This document shows positions 2,832 through 62,052 of a DNA stretch of 64,000 nucleotides, piece by piece. Positions within the stretch are counted from its first letter, which is position 1. Every line of letters starts with the position of its first letter. This DNA comes from Candidatus Zixiibacteriota bacterium (GTDB lineage: Bacteria > Zixibacteria > MSB-5A5 > GN15 > FEB-12), in contig JAGNLV010000004.1 in assembly GCA_017999435.1 (NCBI GenBank), positions 62,001 to 126,000 of the forward strand, read 5' to 3'. The translations under genes were made by a program, and so were the position numbers. Below the pieces are notes generated by a model. It was given only the letters and a program-made list of their open reading frames with translations, ran no database searches and was not told the DNA's origin.

Positions 2832-3788
2832 TTAGTCATCCCGGCGCAATTGATCGTACACGAGGATCGAGGTGGTGATCACGCCGGCCAGGGTCGCTAC
2901 CGTGGTGACGTTGAACCCCTGGAAGAATCCGCTCTTGTGCGGCACGACCACGACATCCTCGCGGCCGAGGACGTAGCGGGCGGGGGCGCCGGAGCGGCTG
3001 TAGCGCTCGAGGTCGATCTCGAGCGCCTGGCCGTAGAACTCGTCCTTGCACACCACCCGCGCCTTCTTCACGTTCGCTTCGTTGGTCGGGCCTCCGGCCA
3101 GCGCAACCGCCTCGAGCACGTCGATGTTCGGCTGGTACTCGACCGGGCCGGGCGTGGTCACTGCGCCGACTACGTAGACCAGGTTTTTGCGCTCGGCCGA
3201 CCGGTCGAAGCTCGCCGAGGGCAGCCCCACCGGCGTGCGGGGGATGTCGATCGTGTCGCCCCGCCGGATCTTCGGCAGCCCCCCGAGCTGGCCCGCGGCG
3301 ATCGCGGCGGCCACGTTCACGACCTCGACGCGGCCGGCCTCCTCGCCGCCGCGGATAATCGTCACCCGGCTCAGGTCCCCGGTCTCGGTTACACCGCCCG
3401 CCTCATTTATGATCGTCCACAAATCCGGAATCTCTTCAAAGGTCATCTTGCCCGGATGGTTCGCCTGTCCGGACACGAACACGTAGAGGTAGTTATACTC
3501 CTGCACGCGGACAACCGCCTGCGAAATCCGCTGGTTCAGGCGCGACATCTGGCGCACGATGTCCTCCTGCAGCTCCTGCGTCGTCCGGCCCGAGGCTTTG
3601 ATCTCCCCGATGATGTCCAGCGTGATCGTCCCGTCAAAGGACACCCGCAGCGTCGAATTCAGGGTCGGATCCTGCCAGAATTCGATCTCGAGGACGTCCC
3701 CGGGACCGATGCGGTATTCCTGGCCGGAGCCGATCCCGCAGGCGGTCAGGACGAGCAGCGATGAGAGCAACAACAATCTCGTGTTCAT
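2832..3788 (-). CDS. Wza-like polysaccharide export lipoprotein with SLBB domains
   Basis: 318 residues from ATG 3788. This start is preferred over an ATG 36 nt upstream because it directly precedes a lipoprotein signal (NTRLLLLSSLLVLTAC, lipobox LTAC). A GGGAGG lies 14 nt before it, an unusually long spacing. The mature part has the Poly_export segment (EYRIGPGDVLEIEFWQD, about residues 23-100) and two SLBB-like domains (about 100-190 and 205-280). It ends in a hydrophobic helix near residues 290-312, as in the Wza trans-outer-membrane barrel. It should form the outer-membrane exit pore for a capsule or exopolysaccharide, working with the Wzz-like protein next door. A promoter and a CsrA-like site lie just upstream. 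Confidence 0.88.
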   Translation of the reverse strand: MNTRLLLLSSLLVLTACGIGSGQEYRIGPGDVLEIEFWQDPTLNSTLRVSFDGTITLDIIGEIKASGRTTQELQEDIVRQMSRLNQRISQAVVRVQEYNYLYVFVSGQANHPGKMTFEEIPDLWTIINEAGGVTETGDLSRVTIIRGGEEAGRVEVVNVAAAIAAGQLGGLPKIRRGDTIDIPRTPVGLPSASFDRSAERKNLVYVVGAVTTPGPVEYQPNIDVLEAVALAGGPTNEANVKKARVVCKDEFYGQALEIDLERYSRSGAPARYVLGREDVVVVPHKSGFFQGFNVTTVATLAGVITTSILVYDQLRRDD

Positions 3789-3801
3789 ACTTTTTGTGCC
3801 A

Positions 3802-3813
3802 ACCTCCCTGTAA
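3802..3813 (-). promoter_or_regulatory. CsrA-like binding site in the Wza-like mRNA leader
   Basis: On the minus strand the leader reads UUACAGGGAGGU, about 10 of 12 positions of the E. coli CsrA consensus RUACARGGAUGU. The site contains the Shine-Dalgarno of the export lipoprotein gene. Flanking UGCC and GGCA could pair and place GGGAGG in a loop. A csrA gene lies in the same window. Binding is inferred, not shown. Confidence 0.45.
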
Positions 3814-3872
3814 GTATCCGGCATCTAATGTCTTATATACATATCGGCGCGTCGCCGAGACTCCATTAAATC

Positions 3873-3955: not shown

Positions 3956-5599
3956 TCACGGTGACTCGGCCGGCGCGTCCCCATACAGAACCGCTTTGTT
4001 CCGCCCTTGTTCCTTGGCCTTCAGGAGCGCCATGTCGGCGGCGAAGATCAACTGGCGCGGGTTGTCGGCGTGGTCGGGGTAGAGCGCTCCTCCGAGCGAG
4101 GCTGTCGAAGTCAGGGGCGCTGCCAAACCGGTCACCGGGAACTCCGCTTTGGCCACCTCGATCTTGACCCGCTCCATGAACCGGATGGACATAGCGCGGT
4201 CGGCCTCGGGCATGATGATGCAGAACTCGTCCCCGCCGTAGCGGGCGATGATGTCGATCGATCGGATGTTGTTGCGCAGGATCCGCCCCATCTGCCGTAT
4301 GAGCGAATCGCCGGCCAGGTGCCCGTACGTGTCGTTGGTCTGTTTCAGACCGTCGAGGTCGAAGAAAATGAGGGCCAGCCGGCGGCCGTAGCGCTTGGCG
4401 CGCTGCACCTCCTCCTCCAGCCGGCGCTTGAAATACCTCTGGTTGGCCAGCCCGGTGAGCGCGTCCGTCTGCGACAGCTCCTCGATCTTCTCGTATGTTT
4501 CGACGTTGGCGATCAGGTCGCGGACGTGGCCGCGCACAGTGTCGATTTGCTCCCGGGGCACCGCCCCGGTCCGGTCGCTGTAGGCCAGCAGAGCCGGCCG
4601 CCCCTGTATCGCCGGGAAGGCCGTCACGTGGTCGAGCCCGGCCTCGCGGAGGCTCTTGACCCACTCCCGCAGCCCGGGCTGCTCCTGGGCCAGCCGCGCG
4701 AGCGTGTAGACGTCCTCATTCTTGATCGCCCGCAGGACCCCCTCGACCTGCCCCTTTTCCTGCGCCGGCAGGTTCATCCGGACGCCGTCCTGCACCACCT
4801 GCGGTTCCCCCCCGCCGTTGGGCTGATAGAGGTAGGCCACCCGCTCGAGTCCGAGATCCTTGCGGATCGACTCCACCAGTTTCGGCAGAAGCGTCTGCGA
4901 ATTGCGGTGCGTGACCAGCCGCAGCAGGTGGCTGGCGGCGCGCCCTTCCCCTGCAGGCGGTTTTTGTGCCGAGGCCCGCGCCCGCTCGAGCTGCTCGCGC
5001 ACCAGGTCGTAGCGCGACTCATGCCACTTGATGTGGTAGGCCGCCGCGAGCGAGTGGGCCAGGCTCGCCACCAGCACGTGAAACGACGGCGATTGGGTCT
5101 CCAGCGTGCTCCGCACGAAGTACAGCCCGTAGAGGTTGTCCCGCCAGAAGACGGGGAAATAGAGCCCGAAACCGTGGGTCCGCAGCCGCTCAAGGTAATC
5201 GTCGGCGAAATGCCCCTGCAGCCGATCGAGCGGCGCGGGGCGAAAGTCGGTCGCCAGCGCAGCCAGCAGGCCCCGTTCGGCCGCCGCGCGGAGCTGCGCC
5301 CGGTCGATGTCCCGCAACCCGTGGTGGTAGCTGAGCTCCAGGAAATCCCGTTTCTTGCGGAGGAACAGGATCAGGTCGCACCCGAACGCCGTGCGCAGCA
5401 GATCCGACACTTTCCGCGCCACTTCGACGATGTTGCCCTCGACGCTGTTGCGGCGGAGGAACTCGCTGAATTCCTCGAGTTTCATGCGCCGCAGGCCTTC
5501 CACCTGGCGCCGCTCCCGGCGAATCCGGTGGACCAGGAGGGCGGCCAGCACGACCACCAGCAGCGCCAGTGCAACCGTCAGGACCGTCTGGTCATCCAT
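3956..5599 (-). CDS. Membrane-anchored diguanylate cyclase with GAF-like sensor regions and GGDEF domain
   Basis: 547 residues. An N-terminal membrane segment at about residues 6-24 is followed by a basic stretch. Two regulatory regions resembling GAF domains (about 50-190 and 215-370) precede a C-terminal GGDEF domain. The active-site signature is intact (RYGGDEFCII), and an RSID sits exactly five residues before GGDEF, the classical RxxD inhibitory site for product feedback. It should make cyclic di-GMP from two GTP. The gene follows the partner-switch genes and precedes the polysaccharide export genes. Control of exopolysaccharide output by its product is plausible from position but not demonstrated. 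No EAL domain is present. Confidence 0.9.
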   Translation of the reverse strand: MDDQTVLTVALALLVVVLAALLVHRIRRERRQVEGLRRMKLEEFSEFLRRNSVEGNIVEVARKVSDLLRTAFGCDLILFLRKKRDFLELSYHHGLRDIDRAQLRAAAERGLLAALATDFRPAPLDRLQGHFADDYLERLRTHGFGLYFPVFWRDNLYGLYFVRSTLETQSPSFHVLVASLAHSLAAAYHIKWHESRYDLVREQLERARASAQKPPAGEGRAASHLLRLVTHRNSQTLLPKLVESIRKDLGLERVAYLYQPNGGGEPQVVQDGVRMNLPAQEKGQVEGVLRAIKNEDVYTLARLAQEQPGLREWVKSLREAGLDHVTAFPAIQGRPALLAYSDRTGAVPREQIDTVRGHVRDLIANVETYEKIEELSQTDALTGLANQRYFKRRLEEEVQRAKRYGRRLALIFFDLDGLKQTNDTYGHLAGDSLIRQMGRILRNNIRSIDIIARYGGDEFCIIMPEADRAMSIRFMERVKIEVAKAEFPVTGLAAPLTSTASLGGALYPDHADNPRQLIFAADMALLKAKEQGRNKAVLYGDAPAESP

Positions 5600-5644: not shown

Positions 5645-5956
5645 TCAGAACCGCCGGGCCGGACCCCTCCCGCGCCCGCGCCCAAAGCGAAACCGCGAGC
5701 GGCGGCTCAGCAAGCCATGCCGGCGGAGAACGCCGAAGATTCGCCACCACCCGGCATCCGGGAACAGACCCGTTTCACGGACGGCGCGGCTGAGTTCGGA
5801 AATACTCGCGAAGGGGTCATCCTTGACCAGGCGAAGCACCGCGGTGTCCAGATCCCCGCCGTTAAGCACCTCGTCGGCCGGCCCGATCCCGCGCGGCCCC
5901 CAGCGGTCGGCCGTCTCAACACCAAGGTCGTCAACCACCGTCAGTCCGGCGGTCAC
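5645..5956 (-). CDS. Small protein coupled to the STAS gene, winged-helix-like; function unknown
   Basis: 103 residues. The ATG overlaps the STAS stop codon (ATGA, 5953-5956), indicating translational coupling, and the cyclase gene starts 45 nt downstream. The middle (LVKDDPFASISELSRAVRET and GWWRIFGVLRRHGLLSRR) has the spacing of a small winged-helix unit: an ISELS helix, then a recognition-like helix and a basic wing. The tail is very Arg/Gly-rich. No family is recognised. It could be a DNA-binding output of the partner switch or a structural adaptor. The strict coupling is the main reason to accept it as a real gene. Confidence 0.55.
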   Translation of the reverse strand: MTAGLTVVDDLGVETADRWGPRGIGPADEVLNGGDLDTAVLRLVKDDPFASISELSRAVRETGLFPDAGWWRIFGVLRRHGLLSRRSRFRFGRGRGRGPARRF

Positions 5957-6339
5957 TCCGCTTTTTTTTTTGCCTCTCCGGACTCCGCGGCCCCGAACTC
6001 CCGCCGCGCCGCATCCACGCTCTCGTGCGCCCGGAGGACTCTGTCGAACTCCAGCAGCTCGTAGATCTCGTAGACGTTCGGCACCATATTCGCGAGCTTG
6101 ATGTCGCCGCCGAGGTTCCGCACGTCCTTGATGTGGGAGATGAAGATGCCCCAGCCCGCCGAGGAGATATAGTCGACGCCGGCCAGATCGACCACGACCC
6201 GGTAGCGCCGCCGCTTCATCAGCGCATCCATGACCTCTTCGAGCTCCCCCGCCGTCGTCGTGTCGATCACGCCGTCGACCCGGATCTCAGAAATGTTGTC
6301 GCGCTCGCTCTCGGAGAGCGAAATGGAGATATTTTCCAT
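5953..6339 (-). CDS. STAS-domain anti-anti-sigma factor (SpoIIAA/RsbV-like)
   Basis: 128 residues, a single STAS domain over about residues 5-108 and a charged lysine-rich tail. The phosphorylation loop is intact (DYISSAGWG; Ser59/Ser60, where the family is phosphorylated on serine in the SSxG-type motif). Family members are phosphorylated by an RsbW-like kinase, dephosphorylated by a SpoIIE/RsbU-type PP2C, and sequester the kinase or another partner when unphosphorylated. Both activities are encoded in the neighbouring upstream gene, so this is the probable substrate. The sigma factor or other final target is not visible in the window. Confidence 0.88.
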   Translation of the reverse strand: MENISISLSESERDNISEIRVDGVIDTTTAGELEEVMDALMKRRRYRVVVDLAGVDYISSAGWGIFISHIKDVRNLGGDIKLANMVPNVYEIYELLEFDRVLRAHESVDAARREFGAAESGEAKKKAE

Positions 6340-6427
6340 GGCCGTTTCTGCAGCCGGAGCTGCCTGGGTTCAGTCGGCCTCAAGGAAAGGATTCCGCCCG
6401 ATGCAGGCAAGCATAAAACACGGCCGG

Positions 6428-8470
6428 TCAGTTCGGCCCGCCGGCCGCCGTCGGGTTCGACGGTCTCTCCCGCGCCCCGTCGGCCGTCCCCTCGGGCGGG
6501 TCCGCGAGGCGGCCCAGCGCCGCCCGCCCGATGATGAAGGTGATATCGTCGGCCGGCCCCGACAACCCGCAGAACTCCTCGAGCTCGGCCATGAGGGCCG
6601 CCGAGATGCCCGGCAGTTTCACGTCGGGCTGGGCCAATTGCGCCTTCATGAACCGGATGAGCCGGTCGATGCCGTAGTACTGCCCCTCCCGGCTCGACGC
6701 CTCCGTGATCCCGTCGGTAAACATGAAAAACAAGTCCCCGTCCTGCAGCTCGAGCTCGTACTGCTCGAGGCGCTGCTCGAAGGTCGTGTCGATCGCGGCC
6801 GGCACGCCCATGGGCATTCCGGCCGGGTTGAGGGGGCGGATTTCCCCGCTCGCCGCGTGGTAGTACAGGAGGGGGTTGTGGCCGGCCGACACGAAATTCA
6901 GCCTCCGCCGCGCGCTGTCGTACACCGCCAGCATGATCGTGATGAACATCCCGGGCGGGATGTTCTCCCGCAGGTACTCGTGGACGAGGACGAGGGTGCG
7001 CCGCGAGGAGTGCGACTGCCCCGCCTGGATCTGGATCACCGTCCGCAGCATCGACATCACCAGCGAGGCCGGCACCCCCTTGCCCGAAACGTCGGCCACC
7101 GCCAGGCAGTACATGCCCGGGTCGATCTCGAACACGTCGTAGAGGTCGCCCCCGACGACGGCCGCCGCCCGGTAGAACGTGTCGATTTCCAGCCCCGGCA
7201 GATCGGGCAGGCGGCGCGGCATGAGGGTCTTCTGGATCTGCGAGGCCACCTCGATCTCTTTGACCATCTTCTCCCGGGCCACGATGTTTTCGCGGTCCTG
7301 GCTCACCCGGGTCATGAGGTCGTTGAAGGCGCGCGAGATTTCGTAGAACTCCTCCGCGCCCTCCAGCGACAGTTCCGAGCGCAGGTCCCCCGAGGCGAAG
7401 CGCCGGACCCGCTGGGTGATGCGCACGATCGGGTCGACGAAGTAGTTCGACAGGACCCAGATCCCGGCCACCCCCACCATCAGCAGGACGAAAGTGAGGA
7501 CGAGAATGCGCCGGCGCGCCTCGGCCAGCCGCTGCTGGAGCTGCTCGGAGGAATACACGGCGTGGACCGTCCCGAACGACCGGTCCCCCTGCCGGATCGG
7601 CAGCATCAGGTAGCTCAGCGCACGCCCGTTCTCGGAGAACCGGAAGGGCACCCCGACGCGGGCCGCGTGCACCTCCGGCGGGGGCGCGTACGGTTTGCGG
7701 ATGTTGTGGATGTCGTCGGAGTGGGCCAGGATCGTTCCGGCCGTGTCCGTGAGCACCACCTGCCGCAGGATGCCGGCGTTGGAGCGCACGGCGCTCACGA
7801 TCAACTCGTCGAACTCGACGTCCGACCGCCGGTTGATCACGTACCCGGCGGCCTGATCCCCGATCGTGTTCACCAGCGACGCCACCGTCTCGTCGAGGTG
7901 CGATTTCATCTGCCGCGTCGTCTGGCTGTCGAAGTAGTAGTAGGCGCCCCCAACGATGACCAGCACGATGAGGAAGGTCCAGACCGAAAACTTCGCCCGC
8001 AGCGTGGCCATGTGGCGGAGGAAGGGGATGCTCTCGCTGGCCACCGGCTGCGCCTGCTTGATCATCCGCAGTTCATTGTACCCCGCCGAGGAGATGTACT
8101 CCACCGAGTCCATGATCTTCTTGATCATGTAGAACCCCAGCCCCCCCTTGCGGCCCGATTCGACGAGGCGCTGCAGGTCGAGCTTGCCGTCCGACTCCGG
8201 CTGGTACGACCGCCCGGTGTCGATGAGCGAGAAGACGATCATTTTCTTGTAGATCACGATGCGGAGCCGGATGGTCCCCTTCTCGTAGAGGTAGGCGTGG
8301 CGGATGATGTTGGTGGCCCCCTCCTCGATCGCCAGCAGAATGGGCGAGACCTCTTTCCTGGACAGCCCGGCCGAGAGGCAGGCCTCGCGGGTGATGCGCT
8401 GGAGGCTGTCGAGGTATTTCTCCTCCGCCACGACTTCGGCGTTGATCTCTTTGACGGGACGACGGAACAT
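6428..8470 (-). CDS. Membrane protein fusing an RsbW-like ATPase to a HAMP/SpoIIE-type PP2C phosphatase
   Basis: 680 residues from ATG 8470. An ATG at 8506 is less likely because an intrinsic terminator for the upstream gene ends there. The N-terminal 1-140 is an RsbW/SpoIIAB-type HATPase: N-box EEGATNIIRHAY, then DTGRSY, then a G2 stretch GRKGGLGFYMIKK. TM1 lies at about 162-179, a periplasmic region at 180-318, TM2 at about 321-341, then HAMP. The C-terminal SpoIIE/PP2C domain carries metal ligands in VGGDLYDVF, ADVSGKG and FTDGITEA. The protein thus holds the kinase and the phosphatase of a partner switch in one sensor. The STAS protein downstream is the obvious substrate. No clear Shine-Dalgarno precedes either start. 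A TACTAT six nt before ATG 8470 would suit leaderless initiation. Confidence 0.85.
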   Translation of the reverse strand: MFRRPVKEINAEVVAEEKYLDSLQRITREACLSAGLSRKEVSPILLAIEEGATNIIRHAYLYEKGTIRLRIVIYKKMIVFSLIDTGRSYQPESDGKLDLQRLVESGRKGGLGFYMIKKIMDSVEYISSAGYNELRMIKQAQPVASESIPFLRHMATLRAKFSVWTFLIVLVIVGGAYYYFDSQTTRQMKSHLDETVASLVNTIGDQAAGYVINRRSDVEFDELIVSAVRSNAGILRQVVLTDTAGTILAHSDDIHNIRKPYAPPPEVHAARVGVPFRFSENGRALSYLMLPIRQGDRSFGTVHAVYSSEQLQQRLAEARRRILVLTFVLLMVGVAGIWVLSNYFVDPIVRITQRVRRFASGDLRSELSLEGAEEFYEISRAFNDLMTRVSQDRENIVAREKMVKEIEVASQIQKTLMPRRLPDLPGLEIDTFYRAAAVVGGDLYDVFEIDPGMYCLAVADVSGKGVPASLVMSMLRTVIQIQAGQSHSSRRTLVLVHEYLRENIPPGMFITIMLAVYDSARRRLNFVSAGHNPLLYYHAASGEIRPLNPAGMPMGVPAAIDTTFEQRLEQYELELQDGDLFFMFTDGITEASSREGQYYGIDRLIRFMKAQLAQPDVKLPGISAALMAELEEFCGLSGPADDITFIIGRAALGRLADPPEGTADGARERPSNPTAAGGPN

Positions 8471-8579: not shown

Positions 8580-10415
8580 CTAGTCCTGGTTGTTCGACTT
8601 GAGGCGGAGTCGAGCCTGCTCAATGTTGTCCAGCGTGGCTTCGTTGCCCGGATACCGCTCCAGCACCTTCTCCCACGCGTCGATCGCTTTCTGGTACTCC
8701 TGGTTCCGCATGAAGCGCAGGCCCTCGAGGTACAGCTGCCAGGCCTCGGGATCCTGCTGGATCTCGTCGAGCGTCGGCGGATGCTCAAGCGCGGTCTCGA
8801 TGCGGCGCAGGTACTCCTGGGCCACCGGTTCGTCGGGACTGGCCGAGAGCACGAGCTCGAACTGCCGCCGCGCATCCCCGTACCGGCCGGCCTTAAACAG
8901 GTCGATGCCGGTGTTGAGGTGCCGCCCGACATCGAGACTCCGGGCCAGCGCTTCTTTTCCCCGCTGCGCCGTCACGTTGTTGGGGTCGAGGTAGAGGACG
9001 CGCTCGTAGGCCTCGATCGCGGCGACCGTGTTGCCGTCGCGCCGCGCCTCGCGGGCGGTTTCGAGAGTTTCCGACACCGCAGTCGCCATCGCCGCCTCAA
9101 TCCCCGCCTTGAGCGCCCGCGCCGGCGCGTAGTTCGGATCGACCTCGAAAATCAGCTGGATCATGTCCAAGGCCGCGGGGTAGTACTCTTTCCCCGCGAA
9201 ATTCCGCGCCTGCTCGAGATAGGACGCCATCATCCGGTTCAACTCGTGCTGCCGCTCGAGCAGATCCGTCTGCTCGCTCTGCTGGATCCGCTGCGTGCTC
9301 TCCATGGCCGCGATCGCCCCGATAATCTCCTGATTGTTCTCGTCGAACGCCAGCGCCCGCTGGTAGTAGGTCAGGGCGGAATCAAGCCGGAAGCGGGCGC
9401 GGAATTCGTCCGCCTTCTGCTTGTACAGATTGAACTGCCGCCGCCGCTCTTCCTCGAGCAGATCGGTGCCTTTGCGTAGTTCCGCCAGGCGCTGTTCCTC
9501 AGCCTGCTCGGCGACCGAGGGCCCGATGTCGTAGGAGATGGAGAACCGGTGCGAGTCGGGGATGTAGTCCATCAGCTTGTAGGTGTAGTCGACCTGGAAC
9601 CGCCCGCGGCGGAAGCCGGCACCGAAAGCCAACTGGTCGCGGTCCCAGCCGGCCCGCACGGCATAAGCTCCGGCGAACAGGAGCTCGCCGCCGGTGTGGA
9701 CCCGCACCGCCCGGTCCTCGATCTGCTCCAGCTCGAACGAGATCAGCCCCGCGATGTCGTCGCGAATCCGCAGCCCGCTGACCGACATGCCTCCGGCCAC
9801 CGACAGGGGCGCGGTTTCCTCTTCCTGGTTGAGAGTGAGGCCGGCCGGAATCACGTCCCGCAGCACCATCCCCACCGAAACCTGCTCGTGCGGCCGGGCG
9901 AGCAGCCCGAGATCCGCCCCCACTCCCCAGTTCGAGTAGACGTCGAGCGTCTGGTACACGACTTTGAGCGAGGCCCCGGCGGCGAAGTGGGGGTGGAACC
10001 GCCGCCCGTAGGACAGCAAAATTTGCGATTGCACATAGTCAAACGTGCCGGTTTCAATGAACTCCTCGCGGCGCACGATATCGCCCGTTCCCAGGCGCAT
10101 GACGCCGAGCCCGAACCCCCCGCGCGACACGGTCGGGTACACCCAGGCCGCGTAGTCGTAGATCGTCCCCTCGAGCAGCGACATGTGCATGGCCGTGACT
10201 TCCTGGTAGTCCAGGCGCGTCAGGCCGGCCGGGTTGTAGTAGATGGTCGCCGCGTCGTCGGCCACCGAGGTGAACCCGCCGCCCAATCCGAGCGCCCGCG
10301 CTCCCACGCCGACGGTGAAGGGCGACTCCCGCCCGGCGTCCCCGGCAGTCACCGCCGCGGCCGTCGCCAGCAGCAGCGCCGCCGCCAGCCCGCTCAGAGA
10401 TCGGCGCCCCATCAT
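8580..10415 (-). CDS. PorV/PorQ-family outer-membrane beta-barrel protein with C-terminal TPR domain
   Basis: 611 residues. A signal peptide (about 1-24) is followed by a PorV/PorQ-type barrel: GVGARALGLGGGFTSVADDA and IYYNPAGL at the mature N-terminus are the family hallmark, and the barrel runs to about residue 310. A charged helical linker and several TPR repeats fill the remaining 300 residues. PorV-type proteins are outer-membrane barrels associated with type IX secretion of C-terminal-signal proteins. The start codon lies 1 nt after the stop of a 1218-residue surface protein, so the two are coupled and probably work together. The large soluble TPR extension, presumably periplasmic, is unusual for PorV itself. 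Confidence 0.8.
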   Translation of the reverse strand: MMGRRSLSGLAAALLLATAAAVTAGDAGRESPFTVGVGARALGLGGGFTSVADDAATIYYNPAGLTRLDYQEVTAMHMSLLEGTIYDYAAWVYPTVSRGGFGLGVMRLGTGDIVRREEFIETGTFDYVQSQILLSYGRRFHPHFAAGASLKVVYQTLDVYSNWGVGADLGLLARPHEQVSVGMVLRDVIPAGLTLNQEEETAPLSVAGGMSVSGLRIRDDIAGLISFELEQIEDRAVRVHTGGELLFAGAYAVRAGWDRDQLAFGAGFRRGRFQVDYTYKLMDYIPDSHRFSISYDIGPSVAEQAEEQRLAELRKGTDLLEEERRRQFNLYKQKADEFRARFRLDSALTYYQRALAFDENNQEIIGAIAAMESTQRIQQSEQTDLLERQHELNRMMASYLEQARNFAGKEYYPAALDMIQLIFEVDPNYAPARALKAGIEAAMATAVSETLETAREARRDGNTVAAIEAYERVLYLDPNNVTAQRGKEALARSLDVGRHLNTGIDLFKAGRYGDARRQFELVLSASPDEPVAQEYLRRIETALEHPPTLDEIQQDPEAWQLYLEGLRFMRNQEYQKAIDAWEKVLERYPGNEATLDNIEQARLRLKSNNQD

Positions 10416-10416
10416 G

Positions 10417-13400
10417 CTACTTCACCACCGCCACTTTCATGCGCGCCTCTTCGCCGGTCCGCACCACCTTGACCGCCACGATGTATACGCCGTTGTTCAC
10501 CATCCCGCCTTCACCGTTGCGCCCGTCCCATGCGAACTCGATCCGCACGTCCCCCTGCGGCACCTCGTCCTCGTATACCGTCTCGCCGGTCAGCGTAAAC
10601 ACCCGCACCTCCACGGCCGAAGGCTCGGCGATTTCCAGTTCGAAGCGCGCCGGGCCGACTTTCGGGTTGAACGGGTTGTTCTCAATCACGTAGGATTCCT
10701 CGAGCCCCCGCCCGCGCATCACGTAAGTGCGCGAGAACAGGTACGGTCCGGCCGGCCCCTTCACCCGCACCGGGAAACCGTCGTGCGTTCCCCCCTGGAA
10801 AACGGCCTCGAACCCGTCGGTCTCCAGGCCCAGCGTGAAGGGGGGCGGCAGGCTGTTGACGAATCCGCCCCGGAACGTCAGTGACCGGGTGTGGCCCGAG
10901 GCGATAGTCAATCCGTCGAAAGCAACCGCGATCTGGTCGGCTACCGTCACTTCGGCCGGCACCGGCACACCGTCCTCGAGCACAACGGTGCGGTCGGCGA
11001 CGAACAGCCGCGCGGCATCGGTCGGCCGCCCGGTGCGGTCCCGGACATCCATGCGCATCCGCTCCAGCCGGATGACGGAGACGGTCGACGATCCCTCGTT
11101 GGTCAGATCGATGCGGAACAAGTCCCGGTCTTCACCCGGACTAATCAGGTTGGATCCGAGCTCGGTGACTTTCACGAACAGGTCGGCGTCCTGCGACTCG
11201 ACACGCAGGATAAAGGAGAACTGGTCCTCCTCGATGTGCGCCGGCGCCCCGAGGTTGAGGTCATGGGGAATGCGCAGGAGCCGGAACTGGAACAGGGCCG
11301 CGGTATCGAAGGACGGCGCGGTGAAGGGGAACTCGATGTGGCGTCCGACCGCGATGGGTCCCTCGAGCGTGTCCGGGGCGCCGAAATCGATGCCGCCGGT
11401 GAGCAAGCGGTAGAACCCGCTGTCGACAGCCGCCTCGCCGCGGTTTTCGATCTCCACGGTGAGCCCGAAGGGCGTGCTGTGGTCCACGACGACGGCCGGG
11501 AGCACGCCCCAGAGGCTGTAGGTCAGGCGCAGGTCCGCCGGTAGCTGAATGCGCACCAGCGCCACGTTATCATCGGGCGGCTGCACGACCGCCTGGTCGG
11601 GCGTGTCCGGCTCCGCCCGCACCTGGAATATTTCGCCCGGATTGGGCGCGGCCGCCGCCCGGCAGTCGAAATACACATCCGCCGTGTCTCCCGGCGGAAT
11701 GTGGGCGACCGTTTCTGCGCTGTCATAGGTCGAGTAACCGTCGCTGGTCAGGCGGAGCGTCACCGGCCCCACGTCGATCGTCGAGATATTGGCCACCCGC
11801 GCGAGCAGCCGGAACGCCTGATCGGTGTTCACGTTGGGGGCATTCGGCGCCAGCACGTCGAGCGCCGCCACCCGCACGACCCCGAGACTCCGCACCTCCA
11901 CCCCCTCCCCGCCGAAATCGAGCGCCACCGTGTCGGACACGCCGGCCGATGGGATATATACGACCGCCGTTCCCGCGCAAGCCAGCGTCCCGCCGACCTG
12001 GCTCTCGGGAACAAACAGCGCCTCCGTCGCCATCGGGTTAAGTCCCGGCGCCGGCGCCCCGTCCACCGGGGCAAAACTGGCAAAGGCCGCGAAATCGACC
12101 CCGGTGAGGCCGAACGCCGATTGGACGCCCTGCCACTCCACGTCGTAGGCGACCGCGAGATCGAGATCGAACATGAAAGCCGAGTGGTACCCGCCGGGGA
12201 CTAACCGCGGGCGGAGGGATCCCGGCGCGTAAGTCAACCGCACCGGCTCCAGCACGACGGCGGTATTCGCGGTGAACGCCGCCTCATATATCTGCCCGTC
12301 GGTGTACAGCGTGACGGTCAACTCGTAGGGTGTGGCCGCCGCAGGGATCGCGGGAGCCGCGGCCGGCAGACCGCGATACTGCAGGATCCCGTCCTCGCCG
12401 GCTGTCGCGGCGGCGATGCCGGAGAACAGCGCGGGGCTGATTCCGGCCAGCGCAATGGTAACCCGCGTGGAGTCCACCGGCAATGCCAACCCGCTCACGC
12501 GCACATCGAACCCGAGTTCCAGGGGCATTTCCGGATAAAGTGTATCCGGCCCCAAAGACTCGGACACCAGGTCCAGAGCGATGGGCGCAGTGATCGTCAC
12601 CGGATACAACGCGGTTTGTTCCACCGGGTAGATCCGGCCGCCGATCTCAAACTCCGCCGCCAGGCGGAGCGTCAATTCCGTTTCTCCCTCCGGCAGACCG
12701 GCGGTGGAGATGCTCAGCAAGACCGTATCGGTCCGGCCGTCGGAGCCGCCAACAAAAGTGGCCGTGCCGCCGCCCGCCGGGCTGCTCGCGAAATCCGCTT
12801 CCAGCGCAGCCGGTCCCGCCGGCGCCAGGAGCCCGCGGTTGGAGACAACCACCCGTAGCGCGGTGATCGACTCGGCCGGGAGCGCCGCCGGTGTCCCGCC
12901 GTCCGGCCCCAGCAGCGCGAGAAAGTCATATCCGCTGAACGACACCGGCTCGGTGTCGGACACGGCGTAGGCGGTTCGACCCGAGATCGTCGTTTGCGCC
13001 GTCGGTCCCCGATAGACCACACCGGCTGCGTCAAGATCGATGATGCCGCCGCTGATGAAGGCGTTGTCGTCGAGAAACGCCGGTTCCAGCGCTCCTTCCC
13101 CGCCCATCACCTCCAACGGGTCGGCCGCGAGATCGTGCCCGCCGCAGAGATTGCCGCAAGCATCGAACACGAGCACGCGGGCGGGACCGAAGAGCGGCTG
13201 CCCCACCAGTTGCTGCGGGGGGACATCAAAATCCAGCAGGGCGGCCGGCCCGGCAATCACGGTGATCAGGCCGGAGAGGGCCGTGAGACCTCCAAGGGTC
13301 GCCTGCACCCGCCCACTCCCGACCGTGCGTGTCGCCAGCGTATTGCCGCTCACCGTTCCGATCGCTCCTTCCATGAGCGACCAGCTCACCGGGGGATCAT

Positions 13401-14073
13401 CGACCCGGTTGCCGAATTCGTCGTACCCGGCCGCCCCGAACGCCAGTAGCGTCCCCGCGGTCACCGTCGTATCGGCCGCCGGGAACACCTCCAGCGACTG
13501 AATCGCGCGCGGGTAGATCCGGAATGGATCTGACAGCACCGGGCCGGCCAGAATCATCCCCTGCCGGTCGAACGCCAGACCGGCAGCCTGATAGTAGCCG
13601 GCCGTCTGCGGATTGATTACGTCAGCTATCACCAAAGTGAGCGTTACAAGCGAATCCGTCTCTCCGGGCTGGCCGTAGACGCCGAGCCCGATCGTCACGA
13701 CGTTGTCGGCGATCACGGTTTCCTGGATGACGAACTTGAGTCCGGCGTTGTCGTCGGTGAGCGCCCCCACTTCCGCGTGGTGCAGGCTGAATCCCTCGGG
13801 GAACGAGAACACGAACCCGCCGAGGCTGTTCACCAGAATCCACGGTGCGGTCACCCGGCAGGTGAGCGTGTAGCGCGCGGTGTCCGCGGCCACGGAATCG
13901 TCAAGCGCCACGGCAAACTCCCGGAACTCGACATAGACCGCAGATGACGGAGGCGCCAGGCGGCCCTCGCGGAGCAACGGACCATAGGTGTTACTGATTG
14001 CCTGGAGATCGACGGCGCCGAAGGCACGGGCCGCGAGGAGGACAGAAAGGAGTATCTTAAGCGTCAACTTCAT
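10417..14073 (-). CDS. Large secreted surface protein with Ig-like domains and a FlgD/T9SS-like C-terminal domain
   Basis: 1218 residues from ATG 14073, chosen because it opens a signal peptide (KLTLKILLSVLLAARAFG). The rest looks like a string of beta-sandwich domains: a Big-like Ig domain near residues 210-330 (TVTAGTLLAFGAAGYDEFG) and later CARDB-like repeats (ANISTIDVGPVTLRL, IENRGEAAVDSG). The final 85 residues match the FlgD-Ig/type IX sorting style (AVEVRVFTLTGETVYEDE, WDGRNGEGG, NNGVYIVAVKVV). No catalytic motif is seen. It is followed by the PorV-like gene with a 1-nt gap. Adhesion or cell-surface structure is a reasonable guess. Ligand unknown. Confidence 0.75.
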   Translation of the reverse strand: MKLTLKILLSVLLAARAFGAVDLQAISNTYGPLLREGRLAPPSSAVYVEFREFAVALDDSVAADTARYTLTCRVTAPWILVNSLGGFVFSFPEGFSLHHAEVGALTDDNAGLKFVIQETVIADNVVTIGLGVYGQPGETDSLVTLTLVIADVINPQTAGYYQAAGLAFDRQGMILAGPVLSDPFRIYPRAIQSLEVFPAADTTVTAGTLLAFGAAGYDEFGNRVDDPPVSWSLMEGAIGTVSGNTLATRTVGSGRVQATLGGLTALSGLITVIAGPAALLDFDVPPQQLVGQPLFGPARVLVFDACGNLCGGHDLAADPLEVMGGEGALEPAFLDDNAFISGGIIDLDAAGVVYRGPTAQTTISGRTAYAVSDTEPVSFSGYDFLALLGPDGGTPAALPAESITALRVVVSNRGLLAPAGPAALEADFASSPAGGGTATFVGGSDGRTDTVLLSISTAGLPEGETELTLRLAAEFEIGGRIYPVEQTALYPVTITAPIALDLVSESLGPDTLYPEMPLELGFDVRVSGLALPVDSTRVTIALAGISPALFSGIAAATAGEDGILQYRGLPAAAPAIPAAATPYELTVTLYTDGQIYEAAFTANTAVVLEPVRLTYAPGSLRPRLVPGGYHSAFMFDLDLAVAYDVEWQGVQSAFGLTGVDFAAFASFAPVDGAPAPGLNPMATEALFVPESQVGGTLACAGTAVVYIPSAGVSDTVALDFGGEGVEVRSLGVVRVAALDVLAPNAPNVNTDQAFRLLARVANISTIDVGPVTLRLTSDGYSTYDSAETVAHIPPGDTADVYFDCRAAAAPNPGEIFQVRAEPDTPDQAVVQPPDDNVALVRIQLPADLRLTYSLWGVLPAVVVDHSTPFGLTVEIENRGEAAVDSGFYRLLTGGIDFGAPDTLEGPIAVGRHIEFPFTAPSFDTAALFQFRLLRIPHDLNLGAPAHIEEDQFSFILRVESQDADLFVKVTELGSNLISPGEDRDLFRIDLTNEGSSTVSVIRLERMRMDVRDRTGRPTDAARLFVADRTVVLEDGVPVPAEVTVADQIAVAFDGLTIASGHTRSLTFRGGFVNSLPPPFTLGLETDGFEAVFQGGTHDGFPVRVKGPAGPYLFSRTYVMRGRGLEESYVIENNPFNPKVGPARFELEIAEPSAVEVRVFTLTGETVYEDEVPQGDVRIEFAWDGRNGEGGMVNNGVYIVAVKVVRTGEEARMKVAVVK

Positions 14074-14321
14074 CTGTTTCAGGCGTTGGAACCTACCTAC
14101 CGGGTGTAGAAATCCTAGCGTCGCAAAAAGCAAAGTCTATGCCCTCAAACTTCGCTATCGCTGTTGCAGACTGACATGCCCGCGAGTTCGCTCCGCCGGG
14201 CCGGACGGTACGGTAACGTATTGGCATGGAATCGGTTGGAGAATCGTGAGGAAAGCGAGAACGTCCGCTGCGGGCGATTGCCGACCAAAAGATCCATCCT
14301 GTCCGCCCGGAACCGAAACGA

Positions 14322-61557: not shown

Positions 61558-62052
61558 CTATATGTCCAGTGCATCTTTGGCCATCTGCTTGGCGGCGGCG
61601 ATCGTCACCGTGTTGGCCTCGTAGGCGCGCGCCGCCGCCATCATGTCGACCATCTCGTTGACCACCTCAATGTCCGGCATCTTCACGTACCCCTGCTCGT
61701 CGGCGTCGGGATGCTCGGGATCGTGGATGAGCCGGTAGCTCGATTGCGGATCCCGGATTTCCTTCATGTCGACGTCGGGGACCTCCACCTCAGATTGCAC
61801 ACACACGCCGCGGGCGGGGAAATGCCGGGTGTTGGTGCGCTCGAGGGAGACGCCGGCGCGCCGCATGGCCTGCCGGAACGACACCCCCGTCTCGTCTTCC
61901 CGCACCTGCACGCGCTTGCGCCGGTAAGGGCCGCCCTCCGGGGTCTGCGTGGTCTCGGCGTTGGCGATGTTTTCGGCCGTGGCGTTCATTTTTGCCCGCT
62001 GGACCGACAGTCCGCGCGACGCAATCTCAATGGCTCCGAGTATGCCCGCCAT
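61558..62052 (-). CDS. flgC: Proximal rod protein FlgC
   Basis: 164 residues. Diagnostic ends are AIEIASRGLSVQRAKMNATA, ENIANAETTQTPEGGPYRRK and, at the C-terminus, NEVVNEMVDMMAAARAYEAN-type VNEMVDMMAAARAYEANTVT. The central RLIHDPEHPDADEQGYVKMP is also typical. It follows flgB by 11 nt. Confidence 0.96.
   Translation of the reverse strand: MAGILGAIEIASRGLSVQRAKMNATAENIANAETTQTPEGGPYRRKRVQVREDETGVSFRQAMRRAGVSLERTNTRHFPARGVCVQSEVEVPDVDMKEIRDPQSSYRLIHDPEHPDADEQGYVKMPDIEVVNEMVDMMAAARAYEANTVTIAAAKQMAKDALDI

Follow-up and report, generated by a model that had tools for sequence, protein, structure and literature searches.

The DNA analysed here is a stretch of 64,000 nucleotides (the window; positions 62,001 to 126,000 of contig JAGNLV010000004.1, GenBank assembly GCA_017999435.1) from a Candidatus Zixiibacteriota bacterium, whose genome comprises 3.5 Mb on 7 contigs. 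The genes at issue all lie on the minus strand and encode a 680-residue transmembrane sensor with both a kinase and a phosphatase domain (6431-8470), its putative substrate with a STAS domain (5953-6339), a diguanylate cyclase (DGC) and components of polysaccharide export. An initial annotation had placed a coupled small protein of 103 residues (5645-5956) directly after the STAS gene. Comparison of related sequences makes it very probable that this "103-residue protein" is no gene product of its own, and that slippage on ten consecutive, conserved adenines (A10) lets the STAS gene continue into it as a second half.

The sensor comprises an N-terminal RsbW/SpoIIAB-like kinase domain (residues 15-138, 8057-8428; HATPase_c_2, E-value 3e-21; sequence match to the RsbW structure 6m36 in PDB, E-value 1.1e-7), a periplasmic sCache_3_2 domain (residues 184-319, 7514-7921; Pfam, 1.6e-7) with hydrophobic segments on either side (residues ~154-181 and ~319-346 in the hydropathy profile), a HAMP domain (residues 340-390, 7301-7453; Pfam, 1.2e-7) and a C-terminal SpoIIE-type PP2C phosphatase domain (residues 451-647, 6530-7120; Pfam, 1.2e-42). 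No REC domain was found among its Pfam profile matches, which follow the order kinase-Cache-HAMP-PP2C. Both enzymes look intact: the kinase residues E50, N54, D84, G86 and GGLG109-112, which make up the N, G1 and G2 boxes of the GHKL fold, are invariant in 70 orthologs, and the metal-binding aspartates of the PP2C, D442, D460 and D586, are present in 70/70 and D642 in 69/70 of them. The two enzymatic domains stand at opposite ends of the membrane-spanning sensory module and are both predicted to face the cytoplasm. The Pfam matches, the hydropathy profile and the orthologs thus bear out the initial description of one protein with an intact kinase, two membrane segments, HAMP and an intact phosphatase. 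The accompanying statement that the two opposing enzymes are normally separate proteins is not generally true, since HsbR, CrsR and Rv1364c combine both (PMC6482189, PMC9138534); the combination as such is already known, and the new part is the membrane-spanning domain order.

Searches of 117 relatives and, in a second round, 132 genomes from the phylum found the sensor in most lineages, often at full length, and it is conserved through most of the Zixibacteria class; the families f6, f16 and f19 gave no match at threshold. A tblastn search of 72,556 plasmids gave no match that spanned 80% of the query, and the occurrence of the fused sensor outside Zixibacteria was only partly probed. A single scan of genome contigs returned Zixiibacteriota and other metagenome-assembled genomes (MAGs), together with Pseudobutyrivibrio, where the proteins are separate, and a Spirochaete with PP2C and kinase in another domain order. 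The sensors of some other families (loci L055-L064, L076, L083-L085 and L087) carry an additional C-terminal tail of ~240-350 residues, which, where scanned (L057), matches helix-turn-helix families and IS481-type transposase domains.

The STAS gene, read without slippage, encodes 128 residues ending in ...GEAKKKAE (PF01740, E-value 4.5e-16; TIGR00377, 65.3 bits against a cut-off of 53.45). The YISSAGW motif is conserved in its relatives, and the predicted phosphosite is Ser60, the second Ser of YISSAG, which we take to be equivalent to Ser58 of SpoIIAA. The 3' end of the gene (GCA AAA AAA AAA GCG GAG TGA) contains the proposed slippage site (5962-5971), which is the sole A10 run in the window (1 observed, 0.01 expected). 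Past the run, the -1 frame continues as KKKSGVTAGLTVVDD... into the "103-residue protein", the frame of which is open upstream as far as the run; this continuation (5645-5971) comprises a KKK linker and a domain resembling a winged helix-turn-helix (wHTH). The sequence KKKSGVTAGLTVVDD... matches relatives in which the STAS and wHTH domains share one reading frame, and in many of them both halves are joined across the same KKK linker (e.g. KKKDREVTRVTVVEGL).

For an analysis of the run and the frame we used 52 distinct genomes of families f1 and f4 that keep both domains, plus 2 inspected by eye. Among the 52, the junction carries A10 in 44 genomes, A9 in seven and A11 in a single one, and the additional two have A9 and A10, respectively, i.e. 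a run of A9-A11 in 54/54. The frame of the wHTH half is by contrast variable: STAS and the wHTH half share a frame in 21 of the 54 genomes, whereas the wHTH half is shifted by -1 in 29 and by +1 in another 4, and the frames that do not lead to the wHTH meet a stop within 20 codons after the run. A tree with 58 rows requires no fewer than 15 changes of the frame state, with the run persisting. The 370 kb of these loci contain no other runs of nine or more A or T than the 52 junction runs. The run is not a codon habit, because AAA and AAG are equally common for Lys in the sensor genes of those genomes (520 each); the retention of A10 by in-frame genes despite this equal use of AAG is expected if the short form there requires slippage. 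Families outside f1 and f4 have an outright STAS-wHTH fusion from which the run is absent. A sequencing error was considered as a cause of the split and rejected, because the run varies little in length, and because in many MAGs, independent of each other, it is bases beyond the run that make the frame differ.

Several points weigh against slippage. The case is built on consensus sequences of genomes, most of them MAGs; one relative (L011/L039) has neither the run nor the wHTH; Shine-Dalgarno-like sites and downstream hairpins around the run did not rise above controls, a result that gives no proof of transcriptional slippage; and in the window a GTG codon (5954-5956) overlaps the stop codon of STAS (5953-5956 together) and could start a separate small protein. 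The last of these agrees with the STAS protein and the "103-residue protein" being products of two translationally coupled genes, the A run being incidental, as does a possible start near the run in some relatives. However, 16 of the 31 out-of-frame genomes analysed have no ATG, GTG or TTG from the run to the wHTH core, and among the 25 in which the motif following the run was located, a start at or before this motif was found in just 7. Moreover, the run is retained throughout, 21 genomes keep A10 even though their two halves are fused in frame, and other families encode the fusion outright. We consider two separate genes very improbable; with A9-A11 in all 54 genomes and just over half of the analysed out-of-frame genomes startless, the coupled gene of the initial annotation is probably a -1 continuation of STAS. 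The wHTH half is under purifying selection irrespective of its frame, with a ratio of non-synonymous to synonymous change (pN/pS) of 0.21-0.48 in out-of-frame sister pairs, about equal to the 0.22-0.45 of in-frame pairs; in the pair L072/L073, both members of which are without a start, the ratio is 0.21.

If the two halves are joined at the run, this could happen in transcription or in translation. Programmed -1 ribosomal frameshifting on A_AAA_AAA would use a known shift site (PMC3711429), and most of the out-of-frame cases are at -1 (27 of the 52 genomes, compared with 4 at +1). Nonetheless, the four +1 genomes could not be served by a -1 shift, nine or more A are a known signature of transcriptional slippage (PMC1088944), and the lack of enrichment of Shine-Dalgarno-like and hairpin signals over controls favors slippage of the RNA polymerase; we hold frameshifting by the ribosome to be unlikely. 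A third mechanism that would exploit the run is phase variation, in which slippage during replication toggles the STAS-wHTH fusion between cells. Homopolymers do mutate in this way, run lengths of 9 and 11 occur as well, and the frame toggles on the tree, but the 44 genomes with A10 are themselves divided into 21 in frame, 21 at -1 and 2 at +1; because the frame varies mostly at a constant A10 and does not follow the run length, phase variation is less likely. The presence of the same run in the housekeeping genes dnaX and coaBC also argues against it, and we regard a phase-variable switch as very unlikely.

The preferred reading, slippage by RNA polymerase at A10, can be compared with other genes of the same lineage. 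The whole genome contains four A10 runs, located in dnaX, coaBC, a gene for an Stp-type PP2C and the STAS gene. The run in dnaX (L163, G000:C4:265155-265164, plus strand) is in frame and is closely followed by a stop in another frame; A9-A10 occurs at the same place in 19/25 f1 loci, this genome included, and in 0/5 f4 loci (relatives L234-L263), and the run-bearing loci have a stop in another frame within a few codons. coaBC is split at A10 between CoaC and CoaB, with a -1 shift (L160, G000:C1:363539-363548, minus strand), and among its relatives (L174-L203) an interdomain A9-A10 is found in 28/30 loci (19 in frame, 9 at -1). Six whole genomes together contain 21 A10 runs, and as 15 of them fall in the STAS gene, coaBC and dnaX, the lineage shuns A10 nearly throughout its genomes but retains it in a handful of genes, among them dnaX, the classic example of slippage. 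In dnaX of Thermus and Chlorobi, A9-A10 with nearby stops in other frames likewise yields short and long products, and both in-frame and two-reading-frame layouts of dnaX with A9/A10 exist (PMC1088944, PMC3711429). The gene is a different one, whereas the STAS gene described here has a wHTH-like second part and its frame toggles often between relatives. Tentatively, and with somewhat more doubt than conviction, we propose that in Zixibacteria slippage at A10 may be a standing way to split STAS-wHTH, coaBC and dnaX into two isoforms each, and that the STAS/STAS-wHTH ratio, together with phosphorylation by the bifunctional sensor, could couple the output of cyclic di-GMP (c-di-GMP) to transcription. 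The Stp-type PP2C frame ends at its A10 run (L161, G000:C1:765028-765037, minus strand), past which another frame encodes a hydrophobic tail resembling a membrane anchor; in most relatives of this PP2C the tail is in frame and there is no long run.

The second half of the STAS gene (5648-5863 for the domain together with its basic C-terminal tail) was assigned to the winged-helix-like proteins because of a three-helix AlphaFold2 model (pLDDT, the model's own confidence measure, 75), weak fold matches and the basic tail. The nearest folds are mostly wHTH DNA-binding domains, with Z-scores of 5-5.6 that count as weak, and Foldseek gave no match at E-value <=0.001, which speaks against the assignment; a sequence search of PDB found no CapS-like wHTH. 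A weak similarity links this wHTH with part of the C-terminal tail of the sensors from other families (best E-value 1.3e-6 among 19 tails). CapS is a STAS-wHTH repressor, the dimer of which dissociates upon phosphorylation, and the CapK-CapS pair resembles the system proposed here in that a GHKL kinase controls a DNA-binding STAS-wHTH protein via a conserved serine (PMC13373217). However, CapK has the architecture HTH-STAS-GHKL, and neither a phosphatase nor a membrane portion has been described for it, whereas here the kinase is the N-terminal domain of a Cache-HAMP-PP2C protein; and CapS is encoded in a single uninterrupted frame and represses immune operons, while our STAS gene is split at A10. 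The order STAS-then-wHTH is present outright in some relatives, but in the window only after slippage, and the wHTH assignment itself is weak.

The DGC (547 residues, 3956-5599) follows the STAS gene and has a membrane helix, two GAF-like domains and a GGDEF domain (E-value 2e-46) with an RxxD I-site, according to profile matches, a structural model (pLDDT 69.5) and a fold search. A GGDEF or GGEEF motif is present in 31/32 of its orthologs and the RxxD I-site in the same 31. Next come genes for an outer-membrane polysaccharide export protein (2832-3824; Poly_export, E-value 1.1e-20, and SLBB), a chain-length determinant of the Wzz/XrtA type (1317-2819; Wzz, E-value 4.4e-10; TIGR03007, E-value 1.2e-37, below its cut-off) and a TPR protein at the conserved end of the gene string (192-1313). 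Analysis by tblastn revealed a conserved string that runs from a large gene (10417-14133) through PorV/Q-TPR, sensor, STAS, wHTH part, DGC, Poly_export and Wzz to TPR, and this order is kept across most of the Zixibacteria class. With the active sites intact and the order conserved in the class, the initial picture of one receptor that carries both opposing enzymes beside STAS, DGC and export genes is supported. In families f7, f18 and f5 the sensor is found elsewhere, yet a GGDEF gene directly follows STAS-wHTH, and in f7 and f18 the Poly_export and Wzz genes come next after it. Since most of the class has these genes in the same order, a link of the switch with c-di-GMP and exopolysaccharide is plausible. 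On the other side, f2 has the sensor beside the DGC and the STAS-wHTH fusion elsewhere, and control of the DGC by STAS, which we infer, rests on synteny and analogy; these two points weaken the link.

The analogy comes from Pseudomonas aeruginosa, where HsbR (REC-PP2C-kinase) acts on HsbA, and HsbA on the DGC HsbD, and from Shewanella, where CrsR, of the same layout, is paired with CrsA (PMC6482189). These systems share with ours a PP2C and an RsbW-type kinase in one protein and a STAS substrate, which in the case of HsbRAD acts on a DGC (PMC6482189); in contrast, HsbR is a response regulator with REC, whereas our sensor has the order kinase-TM-Cache-TM-HAMP-PP2C (TM, transmembrane segment) and the STAS gene carries A10 and the wHTH extension. 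The earlier suggestion that the receptor steers c-di-GMP or exopolysaccharide output stays plausible, with synteny kept even where the sensor has moved, but it is not novel, since HsbR-HsbA-HsbD already steers a DGC. In SiaABCD of P. aeruginosa, which controls aggregation, SiaA (HAMP-PP2C) and SiaB are the separate phosphatase and kinase of the STAS-like SiaC, and unphosphorylated SiaC activates the DGC SiaD (PMC7647112, PMC8457831). Here one protein unites the two enzymes, and their putative substrate is of the classical STAS type, which in Pfam matches PF01740 and gave no match to DUF1987, the family of SiaC; the scores against the SiaA model (71.4 bits, cut-off 700) and the SiaD model (142.7 bits, cut-off 290) are both far below the cut-offs. 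Rv1364c of Mycobacterium tuberculosis joins PAS, PP2C, kinase and STAS in one polypeptide (PMC9138534), so that a PP2C and a kinase on one chain act on a STAS domain as proposed here, but our sensor crosses the membrane, has Cache and HAMP, and leaves STAS separate.

Comparison with these kinases also raises the alternative that the kinase domain acts as an anti-sigma factor of the classical kind, so that its true target would be a sigma factor in place of the DGC or the wHTH. Sigma factors are bound by kinases of the RsbW/SpoIIAB type, and CrsR and HsbR bind RpoS (PMC6482189). Yet the genome holds further STAS and RsbW-type kinase genes, and at two places a STAS and a kinase gene are adjacent as separate genes; these two other modules could fill that role, while the class-wide neighbors of the sensor described here are the DGC and the export genes. 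We judge a sigma factor target to be improbable, though no systematic search for sigma factor genes was made.

The explanation that we favor, and which we think has a somewhat better than even chance of being correct as a whole, is a partner switch with a bifunctional receptor and slippage-made STAS and STAS-wHTH forms, the targets of which would be the DGC and perhaps DNA. The single receptor would phosphorylate STAS with its N-terminal RsbW-type kinase and dephosphorylate it with its C-terminal PP2C, and its Cache-HAMP module, responding to a presumed signal, would set the balance between the two activities. Slippage at A10, by RNA polymerase or, less likely, by the ribosome, would produce STAS alone and STAS-wHTH in some ratio. 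The STAS form probably tunes the neighboring GAF-GGDEF DGC, as HsbA and SiaC do, and hence exopolysaccharide export. STAS-wHTH, the longer product, probably binds DNA under the control of phosphorylation, much as CapS does; the short STAS could pair with this long form, competing with it and blunting its action.

If this is true, the partner switch has a substrate in two lengths, kept wherever both domains are present among the genomes examined from two families, and one receptor and one gene combine switching by phosphorylation with an output to c-di-GMP and possibly one to DNA. Apart from dnaX, it would also be a rare cellular case of a slippery run that is retained while the frame around it drifts. 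To a specialist, the surprise lies in the STAS gene split by slippage. Gene callers can be expected to divide genes of this kind, and the initial annotation, like any other that ends at the STAS stop codon, would report a "small coupled protein" that perhaps never occurs by itself. Our literature search (most subscription journals were outside its scope) found nothing that joins transcriptional slippage with an anti-sigma factor antagonist, and nothing that links Zixibacteria with a diguanylate cyclase.

Analysis of the wider neighborhood revealed that the sensor is preceded by a conserved gene for a PorV/PorQ-family and TPR protein (8580-10415; NF033709, 103.5 bits, cut-off 90) and by a gene for a protein of 1238 residues, the two together spanning 8580-14133 and keeping the same order across the class. 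In some families a gene for a ParA/BcsQ-like ATPase lies after the sensor and ahead of STAS-wHTH (L057:7297-8088; also L055, L058 and L061). At L067, L068 and L081 (families f18 and f5), the genes downstream of the sensor are not those for STAS and export but heat-shock genes, which are grpE/dnaK-like and, at L068 and L081, also hrcA-like. Just past the start of the window (L047, G000:C4:42001-62000), inspection by eye identified a BY-kinase-like fragment and a polysaccharide-deacetylase-like gene, which is consistent with an exopolysaccharide locus.

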